From Paenibacillus thiaminolyticus (GTDB lineage: Bacteria; Bacillota; Bacilli; Paenibacillales; Paenibacillaceae): a DNA stretch of 64,000 nt. Each line of letters starts with the position of its first letter. Position 1 is the first letter of the stretch. Below the pieces are notes generated by a model that searched no databases, was not told where the DNA came from, and worked only from the letters and a program-made list of their open reading frames with translations. The stretch lies in the NCBI RefSeq assembly GCF_007066085.1, contig NZ_CP041405.1, positions 434,001-498,000 on the forward strand, written 5' to 3'. The position numbers and the translations under genes are program-made. This document shows positions 39,518 through 41,690 of the stretch, piece by piece.

Positions 39518-39737
39518 TATAACCTTGAACCGCACATAGAAGGCTTATTCCACTTGTTGAAAATGGAGTGAGCCTTTTGTGTATGCAGGGAGTCGCAGGG
39601 TTCCGCGAACCATGAACAATTGAGGAGATGAAATACGATGCTTTGTGACTGTAAATTGAACAAAATGAAATTCGTTTAAAATGAATGGTTCCACTTCAAG
39701 CGGTGCTCCCGGTTGGATGATGTTGTTCAACGCAATA

Positions 39738-39852
39738 CACCGAAATTCAAATTGCGGATGGCTGGTTGAAAGCTCTCGGTGGTGACCGTTATGAGGTGAA
39801 AAGTGCAGGTCTGGAAGGTATTGATGCCGTACTCTTGAATCGTGCAGATTAA
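39738..39852 (+). pseudogene. Small remnant resembling arsenate reductase (ArsC)
   Basis: The reading QIADGWLKALGGDRYEVKS followed by AGLEGIDAVLLNRAD and a stop resembles the thioredoxin-type ArsC segment that follows the C-T-G-N-S-C-R-S-Q loop. Only the A-N-S part remains upstream and the active-site cysteine is gone. Apart from this, 39518-40057 shows no supported gene. Confidence 0.5.
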
Positions 39853-40057
39853 GCTGTCAAACCTCCAACATGCTGAATAACCGGTGATGTCCATAAGTAG
39901 CTAACCAAAAAGATGCGTCTAAGTGCGAAGGCCATCTTTCCATTTGGTCAATGAATAGAACGAAATATGAATTTGTTTGTTGGGTGTGTTCGCAAAAATC
40001 GAATTTTATGGTAATCTATAGGTGGTCAAGTACTTGCATTGCGAAAGGAGTGAGTCT

Positions 40058-41356
40058 GTGAGTGCCGTTGCTGCAAAGCCTAAGTGCTTGGGGGAGCTAA
40101 TACAGCACTATCGACAGAGTAAGAAATTGACTCTGGCGAAGCTGCAGGAAGCGGTCGGCATCGATAAAGGCAGCCTGTCGAGAATTGAAAACAGCGAGGT
40201 TAAGCGCCCTGATTTTCAATCCATCTTGTCCATCGCTGCAGTATTAGACATTCCCCATAACGACGTCGTAGAGAAGTACATCGAAATTGGACATAAGTCG
40301 GAAGTCGTCTACACTATTTTACAGAACGAATTAACAACACTTGAATATCCTTCGCTGATACCGAAAATAGCCGCAAAATTTCTTCAAGCACCGAATGAAG
40401 ACAGCTTGTACCTAGTAGGGAAATTGTATCGCGAAGCCGACTCCATCGATAACGACTCCATTAAACTTTCGTTGTATGACCTCATCCTTGATTACTCGCG
40501 TTCCCACGGAATTATGCCTTACATAGCTAAAAGCATGTATCAACGTTATCTTATTGAACGAAATGATTTCAGCAGATTGAAGGAAACATACTATAGCGGA
40601 AAGTACATTTTGCATTACATCGATTTCTTGCCGCAGGACGAGCAACTTGAGCTACACTACAAATTAGGGGTTCACGCTTACAACTTGAGGTTCTACAGCG
40701 AGAGTATCGACCATTGCAAAAAAGTACTGGCTGAAGAGGGCGGTCAAAGTCCTTACAAAATATATGCACTTGGTGTGCTTAGAGACGCGCACTTTGGTAT
40801 TGGGGAATACAAAGAGGCTGAGATGTACTCTATACAGTACAAACAGTTTAACTATCCGCACACGCAAGAGCAAATTGTTCTGATGGAAGCCTTATTCAAC
40901 GCTAAGAAGGGCAATACGGCTCAAGCCATTGAACAGTTGTGGTCATTCCTCGATACTTGTAGTGATATCTTTGTTCTTTCTGCAACAAGGCATCTCATTC
41001 AATTGTACTTGGAACAGAACAACACTGAAGGCGTTAAAGCCGTACTAGAAAACAGGAAAATAAGCTTATCCATCATAGATAAAAGAAATCCTTTGACTTA
41101 TTCTGAGTACGCTGAATACCTTCGACTTCAAGGGGAGTACTATTTAGCCATAGGTGACCCTGACAGCGGCATTAGCCATTTGATGGAAGGGGCTTTATAC
41201 TACTCAAAAGTTAACGACATAATCAAAGAGAAAGAATGTCTTAACACGATTGTACGTAATCATATAGAACAAAATATCCCTATGCATAAGCCTGCACTTG
41301 AAAAGTTGAGCACTTATTTTATAAAAAGCGCTAAAGAAATGGAGGATTTAGCATGA
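40058..41356 (+). CDS. XRE-HTH/TPR regulator of the RRNPP peptide-receptor type
   Basis: A 432-residue cytoplasmic regulator. The N-terminal XRE helix-turn-helix spans about residues 10-70 (LAKLQEAVGIDKGSLSRIEN with the recognition helix). Residues 80-430 form a run of helical TPR-like repeats with A-x-x-x-G-x-Y-x-x-A patterns, for example RDAHFGIGEYKEAEMYSIQY. Length and layout match PlcR/AimR/AloR-like receptors that bind a short imported peptide. The GTG start follows AAAGGAGTGAG. Its stop overlaps the ATG of a 37-codon exported peptide gene, which is the expected cognate signal. Confidence 0.87.
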   Translation: MSAVAAKPKCLGELIQHYRQSKKLTLAKLQEAVGIDKGSLSRIENSEVKRPDFQSILSIAAVLDIPHNDVVEKYIEIGHKSEVVYTILQNELTTLEYPSLIPKIAAKFLQAPNEDSLYLVGKLYREADSIDNDSIKLSLYDLILDYSRSHGIMPYIAKSMYQRYLIERNDFSRLKETYYSGKYILHYIDFLPQDEQLELHYKLGVHAYNLRFYSESIDHCKKVLAEEGGQSPYKIYALGVLRDAHFGIGEYKEAEMYSIQYKQFNYPHTQEQIVLMEALFNAKKGNTAQAIEQLWSFLDTCSDIFVLSATRHLIQLYLEQNNTEGVKAVLENRKISLSIIDKRNPLTYSEYAEYLRLQGEYYLAIGDPDSGISHLMEGALYYSKVNDIIKEKECLNTIVRNHIEQNIPMHKPALEKLSTYFIKSAKEMEDLA

Positions 41357-41466
41357 AAAACTTTGTCAAAAAACTGTATTTCAAATCCATTCTTTACTCA
41401 GTTGTATTTGTAACAATGGTGACGGTATTTGCTGGAGATACTACTGGAATCATTCATCCTTGGTAA
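41353..41466 (+). CDS. Pro-peptide of a quorum-sensing pair (Phr/AloP-like)
   Basis: A 37-residue peptide gene, too short for usual gene finding. The ATG overlaps the receptor's stop (ATGA), and GGAGG lies eight bases upstream. The peptide has a Lys-rich start (MKNFVKKLYFK), a hydrophobic export helix (SILYSVVFVTMVTVFA) and a polar end GDTTGIIHPW. Signal-peptidase cleavage after VFA would release the 10-mer, which could be trimmed further. Coupling to an RRNPP-type receptor and the terminator right after its stop define a two-gene signalling cassette. The mature form is inference. Confidence 0.82.
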   Translation: MKNFVKKLYFKSILYSVVFVTMVTVFAGDTTGIIHPW

Positions 41467-41489
41467 AGCACCTTCATGGTGCTTTTTTT
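41466..41489 (+). terminator. Terminator of the quorum-sensing cassette
   Basis: AAGCACC pairs with GGTGCTT around TTCAT, followed by a T-run. It begins at the last base of the peptide stop codon. Confidence 0.88.
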
Positions 41490-41690
41490 ATTTTTGTTCA
41501 TCTCTTTGGATAGATATGACGTTAGGCAAAATCAAAAGGATAACAAAGGTGGAAAAGAGGCTAATGTGGCAGGTGGTTATTACGTGTCACAGTGATCCCA
41601 ATACGAACTGTAACTATTGTGTTAAACTGGTACGTACACGTCAGGCATTAGCCTGGCCTTATCCAGCAATTCAAATTTGGAGGCTTGTAC

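Follow-up and report, generated by a model that had tools for sequence, protein, structure and literature searches.

In the AimR-AimP and Rap-Phr peptide-signalling systems, the gene for the peptide lies directly downstream of the gene for its receptor; Rap proteins lack a helix-turn-helix (HTH) domain, and AimR is borne by phages. A further system with this gene order is the AloR-AloP family of Paenibacillus polymyxa, for which the accessible text of PMC7425212 reports that the receptor AloR13 activates its spo0E promoter, that its peptide switches AloR13 off, and that the published signal is SHGRGG. According to the accessible text of PMC10075063, AloR falls in a cluster of its own among those of RRNPP_detector, whereas cluster 8 is distributed over chromosomes, plasmids and phages of the Paenibacillaceae, and a single AloR-AloP system and a single novel cluster 8 system occur together on one plasmid of Brevibacillus laterosporus LMG 15441. 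Here we describe a receptor-peptide gene pair from the soil bacterium Paenibacillus thiaminolyticus, located in a stretch of 64,000 nucleotides (the window; contig NZ_CP041405.1, positions 434,001 to 498,000) of a genome of 6.61 Mb in a single contig (G000 in our numbering, in which other genomes likewise carry G numbers and compared loci carry L numbers). The best explanation for the locus as a whole, in which we have good confidence, is an RRNPP-type signalling unit that is separate from AloR, has the HTH half of a distinct receptor class (APW, defined below), and likely provides input to the sporulation phosphorelay.

The receptor has both of the protein features that mark the transcription factors of the RRNPP superfamily, an N-terminal HTH domain and a C-terminal superhelix resembling tetratricopeptide repeats (TPRs). 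The Pfam model HTH_3 matches with E 9.7e-9, HTH_31 and HTH_26 are likewise above cut-off, and an AlphaFold2 model consists of 23 helices (pLDDT 89.5). Translation of the 432 codons is read from a GTG at 40058; an alternative in-frame GTG exists at 40022, and relatives in the alignment keep the start at 40058 together with its ribosome-binding site. The peptide gene of 37 codons overlaps the receptor stop as ATGA, and the stem of an intrinsic terminator begins within its stop codon, with 8 pairs and then a run of T residues (−11.3 kcal/mol, z −3.42; 0 of 200 shuffled sequences were equally stable). The RRNPP-type architecture named in the original prediction is upheld, as is its proposal of a secretable propeptide, in so far as this can be judged from the adjacency, the ribosome-binding site, the lysine-rich start, the hydrophobic core and the VFA that precedes GDTTGIIHPW. 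This pattern is kept in relatives, and it appears to supply the adjacent propeptide with an N-terminal secretion signal that is typical of the superfamily. We consider the mature signal to be probably the last 5-8 residues of the GDTTGIIHPW tail.

The peptide frame is under purifying selection. Relative to the two closest loci, in genomes G009 and G016, the ratio of nonsynonymous to synonymous substitution rates (dN/dS, Nei-Gojobori method) is 0.21 and 0.36 for the peptide, with small numbers of changes, and 0.16 and 0.175 for the receptor, while the last nine peptide codons show zero nonsynonymous changes in both comparisons. The closest proteins to the receptor (96, 92 and 91% identity) all bear the name P. 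thiaminolyticus, matches reaching E 1e-30 or better occur in 17 of the 19 Paenibacillus genomes compared, and 11 places in the source genome match, one being a fragment and one containing a stop. Among the matches listed, 14 rows (the locus itself included) have at least 60% receptor identity. In 13 of these a short secretable frame ending in P[WY] is present at the receptor end, so that the peptide gene is kept downstream of orthologues as had been anticipated; the remaining row, L100, is a truncated copy that aligns with residues 2-190, contains two stops and has lost its C-terminal half.

The 13 tails read GIIHPW (3), GSIHPW (3, of which one locus has an additional peptide gene with the tail GSIYPW), GSIYPW (1), GSVHPW (3), GVIHPW (2) and GSIIPY (1), giving a consensus of G-x-[IV]-[HYI]-P-[WY]. 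Because of this list and the comparison of the last nine codons, we regard the tail of this class (HPW) as nearly fixed, not hypervariable, on the sequences compared; other classes in the family have different tails, including APWITNF or APWILPK (the APW class), DHGW and others. The C-terminal variation expected by the original prediction is thus seen between receptor classes and fails to appear within the HPW class. A tryptophan lies within the last 15 residues in 58 of 60 distinct family peptides, which are related sequences and not independent, compared with 14 of 82 open reading frames (ORFs) passing the same filter elsewhere in the compared DNA; 2 of the 60 are without it, and the two Brevibacillus peptides end in PGY. 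Under a strict filter, a peptide was found behind 57 of 87 receptors and none behind 30. The latter comprise some filter misses (L097, L034 and L064), two frameshifted frames (L018 and L031), several Spo0E fusions, and others, such as L032, L048 and L089, that appear to be without a peptide gene. Receptor and peptide are a real and very probably working peptide-signalling pair. We also noted two or three tandem peptide genes with differing tails behind a single receptor at L088, L095, L081, L082 and L019 (for example, QGGIFPW with HGSIHPW, and SGSIHPW with SGSIYPW), where L088 belongs to the source genome itself (receptor G000:C1:2308580-2309863).

Judging from DNA alignments and trees, the receptor is a mosaic, with the promoter and DNA-binding half of the APW class joined to the peptide-binding half and peptide of the HPW class. 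The promoter-proximal block is 81-82% identical over 637-672 columns to the APW loci L085, L033, L051 and L055, and the alignment ends at 40590 in three of them and at 40626 in one. Compared with five APW-class receptors, identity is 78-83% over residues 1-130 and 11-37% over residues 190-432, whereas nine further receptors of the HPW class give values of 40-46% for residues 1-130 and 41-73% beyond residue 190. Trees of 74 receptors reflect the same division: residues 1-125 place the receptor in a 20-row clade with APW receptors (support 97), and residues 195-432 in a 17-row HPW clade (support 99). Constraining one half to the clade of the other is rejected in both directions (p 1.6e-4 and 1.9e-39), with the caveats that the clades were named after the trees had been seen, that the N-terminal part spans only 125 columns, and that these are quick trees. 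Residues 28-67, recognition helix included, are identical to those of an APW-class receptor of the same genome (G000:C1:216446-217711, tail APWITNF), which has spo0E 0.6 kb downstream. Our literature search found nothing on domain swapping in such receptors, which is not proof of absence; recombination, mosaics and fusion go unmentioned in the accessible text of PMC10075063 and PMC9765709, as does fusion in that of PMC7425212.

Window-type receptors are also associated with spo0E at the level of the genus. Domain PF09388 occurs 8 times in the source genome, six times as a fusion to a window-type receptor or in a gene shortly after one, once behind the AloR-type receptor G000:C1:925571-926926, and once alone. 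In a comparison of 150 spo0E places and 150 receptors among the matches listed in 19 genomes, 91 of the 150 spo0E places lie within 1.5 kb downstream of a listed receptor on the same strand, versus 12 in control arrangements. Counts of the two per genome correlate (rho 0.90), and the two genomes in which no receptor reaches E 1e-30 have two spo0E each. At least 11 places have the domain within 60 bases of a receptor match, and it scores 41.4 bits in the L006 fusion. Some receptors without a peptide gene are fused C-terminally to a Spo0E-like domain, as at L087:5291-6664 (G000:C1:1707302-1708615) and at 605886-607202 of the same genome, with further cases at L061, L058, L057, L098 and L072. Such a protein is possibly a receptor and phosphatase in one chain.

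With these observations in mind, we propose the following mechanism. Receptor and propeptide would be cotranscribed from a promoter just upstream of the receptor gene, with transcripts ending at the terminator on the peptide stop. By analogy with described systems, the 37-residue propeptide would be exported via Sec and cut near VFA to release GDTTGIIHPW, which may be trimmed to a short signal ending in GIIHPW and re-imported by an oligopeptide permease. Inside the cell, the signal would bind the TPR-like half and alter the action of the HTH half on promoters. Because the HTH half and promoter are of the APW class and the peptide half is of the HPW class, the likeliest targets would be the receptor's own promoter and, in trans, operators common to the APW-class receptor, which would feed the sporulation phosphorelay. 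By analogy with AloR13, which is switched off by its peptide (accessible text of PMC7425212), the peptide probably turns receptor activity off. Since residues 28-67 are identical and spo0E lies near the APW-class receptor, two signals are predicted to act on the same operators, possibly at a spo0E locus in another part of the genome. We advance only tentatively, as a possibility that may well prove incorrect, the broader idea that promoter-plus-HTH and TPR-plus-peptide halves are exchanged as units, such that HPW and APW signals share or compete for operators and are summed at one sporulation promoter.

The original prediction placed the pair beside AloR-AloP, and membership in that Paenibacillus family must be weighed seriously given that gene order, similar length, the combination of HTH and TPR, and a Paenibacillaceae host are all alike. 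The immediately downstream ORF of 32-50 amino acids expected of AloR-AloP is present here as the 37-amino-acid peptide, spo0E adjoins many window-type family members as described for Alo, and the published AloR list, which came from an iterative profile search, might include window-type receptors. We nevertheless find this membership very improbable. A pattern search for SHGRGG in 394 family genomes gave 37 matches, and four of the 12 examined (L109-L112) consist of a 470-amino-acid receptor followed by a secretable peptide ending in SHGRGG. At a threshold of E 1e-3, neither phmmer nor BLAST matches the window receptor to any of these four. With the L110 receptor as query, four genomes of the P. 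polymyxa group yield 19, 22, 26 and 29 places and the source genome yields 2, whereas the window receptor finds 0 places in the same four genomes and 11 at home. A window-type profile built from 53 sequences scores 313-666 bits on 120 of 120 window-type proteins and detects only 10 of 120 AloR-type proteins, at most at 23 bits; the best BLAST match among the 120 AloR-type proteins has E 0.005. Moreover, both types are neighbours on plasmid pBRLA33, and AloR is assigned to a separate cluster in the accessible text of PMC10075063. Because a profile-profile comparison does link the two types (96.4% probability, 16% identity, 374 columns), we consider window-type receptors and AloR to be remote sisters by sequence. 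The kinship originally proposed is therefore retained only in this distant form. As a separate observation, the source genome has AloR-type matches at G000:C1:925571-926926, which is followed at a distance of 0.4 kb by a spo0E-like gene, and at 3382667-3383311.

Two other explanations deny the small gene a current signalling role. It could encode a toxin that acts on membranes, or some different small hydrophobic protein, kept in check by an XRE regulator, since some toxin-antitoxin loci likewise combine such a regulator with a short hydrophobic ORF that ends in a strong terminator. To this we assign very little weight: the last nine codons without nonsynonymous change relative to the two closest loci, the tryptophan shared by 58 of 60 tails, a long TPR superhelix in the regulator like that of NprR, and a tail class that tracks the C-terminal half of the receptor all argue against it. 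Alternatively, the pair could be a paralogue that is decaying or silent and whose likeness to other copies is maintained by gene conversion, as might be suspected from the many paralogues in the genome (with one fragment and one interrupted by a stop), from recombination, and from the broken peptide frames at L018 and L031. This too we hold to be very unlikely, as dN/dS is 0.16-0.18 for the receptor and 0.21-0.36 for the peptide, and open frames, ribosome-binding site and terminator are kept in the same place in five genomes. Several results nonetheless weigh against a working signalling unit with a sporulation output. The TPR_12 match in the receptor (18.2 bits) is below the Pfam cut-off of 30.1, fold similarity in Foldseek is loose (query TM mostly 0.2-0.5) and scarcely higher than that of many unrelated TPR proteins. 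The copies in G009 and four other species are without one Thr codon in the tail, and the last nine codons carry two to three nonsynonymous changes relative to G008/G007, G008b and G011. The damaging outcomes named in the original prediction, orthologues without a peptide frame or with a decayed one, were absent from close relatives; decay does appear in the more distant L018, whose receptor is open (53% identity), and L031, whose receptor contains a stop (52% identity), and at both loci the peptide frame is shifted and the tail sequence is still readable. The window receptor and its five close relatives have no adjacent spo0E (0 of 6), and tblastn searches using three spo0E proteins detected none over the 9-14 kb surrounding the five relatives; the sporulation link of this receptor is thus indirect. 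Finally, when up to 2 mismatches to the conserved motif TGGTAAWMTATAGRTGG were allowed, the two strands of the source genome together contained 6 sites (3 at receptor promoters) versus 4 for the reversed control pattern; this search revealed no regulon, and none can be claimed because sites outside receptor promoters are no commoner than the control.

The features of the locus are compiled in the table below. The putative promoter was read from the alignment, in which a conserved TATAGGTGG-like stretch overlaps the −10 element and extends past it. A consensus promoter scan did not list this promoter (3 sites were returned versus an average of 5.0 in shuffled sequences), and no inverted repeat was found in 39880-40070. 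Upstream, at 39720-39860, is what appears by eye to be the remnant of an arsenate-reductase-type gene. Downstream, the order receptor, peptide, AraC gene and proline dehydrogenase (ProDH) gene is kept in four other species, and the AraC gene was originally named, together with the receptor's own promoter, as a first candidate target. That candidate is weakened by four places (G009:C2, G017, G012 and G004; L120-L123) where AraC-ProDH has no receptor within 1.5 kb upstream, and by a broken AraC gene beside the receptor in two of four syntenic relatives (L092 and L095). The sequence 5' of the AraC gene matches receptor-free L120 at 80.5% across 154 columns. The AraC gene looks like a bystander, and on our reading the receptor-peptide pair was inserted upstream of an older AraC-ProDH pair. 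With regard to peptide uptake, PF00496 is found at 18 places in the source genome.

Table. Features of the receptor-peptide locus, in window coordinates
Feature	Position	Strand	Basis
Mosaic block: promoter region, HTH and linker in common with APW-type receptors	39959..40590	+	DNA alignment, tree conflict
Putative −35, TTCGCA (TTTACA in several relatives)	39989..39994	+	Read from alignment
Putative extended −10, TGG-TAATCT, 17-base spacer	40012..40017	+	Alignment
Receptor ribosome-binding site, AAAGGAG	40044..40050	+	Seven bases 5' of GTG; alignment of relatives
Receptor gene, 432 amino acids, XRE-type HTH plus TPR-like superhelix	40058..41356	+	ORF, domain search, structure model
HTH domain, residues 11-68	40088..40261	+	Domain search
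TPR-like, presumed peptide-binding half, about residues 195-432	40640..41353	+	Tree grouping, fold comparison
Peptide-gene ribosome-binding site, GGAGG	41341..41345	+	Sequence; kept in relatives
Propeptide gene, 37 amino acids	41353..41466	+	ORF; kept in relatives
Presumed signal sequence, MKNFVKKLYFKSILYSVVFVTMVTVFA	41353..41433	+	Sequence; like pattern in relatives
Predicted secreted tail, GDTTGIIHPW	41434..41463	+	Relatives, selection; cleavage inferred
Intrinsic terminator	41465..41495	+	Stem/fold analysis; sequence kept in relatives

These findings set apart from Alo a large and hardly named peptide-signal family of the P. thiaminolyticus, P. dendritiformis and P. alvei group. Its marks are a tryptophan near the peptide end and a genetic partner, spo0E, that is sometimes fused to the receptor. 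The mosaic receptor amounts to a natural domain-swap experiment, through which peptide quorum systems could acquire new signals without a change of targets.

Comparison with known systems places the pair as follows. Neither NprR-NprX nor PlcR-PapR is among the best 60 of 69 matches in a profile search of the PDB, where HTH and generic TPR proteins are listed; fold comparison gives the window receptor a long TPR superhelix like that of NprR. A TPR fold is likewise common to AimR-AimP and Rap-Phr, with AimR at rank 42 of the Foldseek list. The AloR-AloP systems of P. polymyxa are alike in the order of receptor and peptide, the combination of HTH and TPR, the many copies per genome and the frequent downstream spo0E, but they belong to a different sequence family, and the SHGRGG of AloP13 is without a Pro-Trp tail (accessible text of PMC7425212). 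The nearest counterpart is found on pBRLA33 of B. laterosporus LMG 15441, where BRLA_RS22615 is of the window type (394 bits), is followed by a small gene and adjoins BRLA_RS22620, which is of the AloR type (661 bits). Because this neighbour is of the AloR type, BRLA_RS22615 is left as the cluster 8 system of that plasmid, and by this elimination the window receptor most likely belongs to RRNPP_detector cluster 8 as well, even though it is only about 30% identical to the Brevibacillus receptor. We found no experiments on cluster 8 in the accessible text of PMC10075063 or among the paper titles listed for RRNPP systems and Paenibacillus or for P. thiaminolyticus quorum sensing. As reported for the cluster in that text, window-type relatives occur on phages and plasmids: in Brevibacillus phage Sundance (L114, 93311-95205), a receptor of the window type (371 bits) is followed in turn by a small ORF and a spo0E-like gene, and the receptor relative on P. 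larvae plasmid pPLP3 (L115) likewise has both kinds of gene downstream. The pair from P. thiaminolyticus is most likely a member of an already predicted, barely studied RRNPP cluster.
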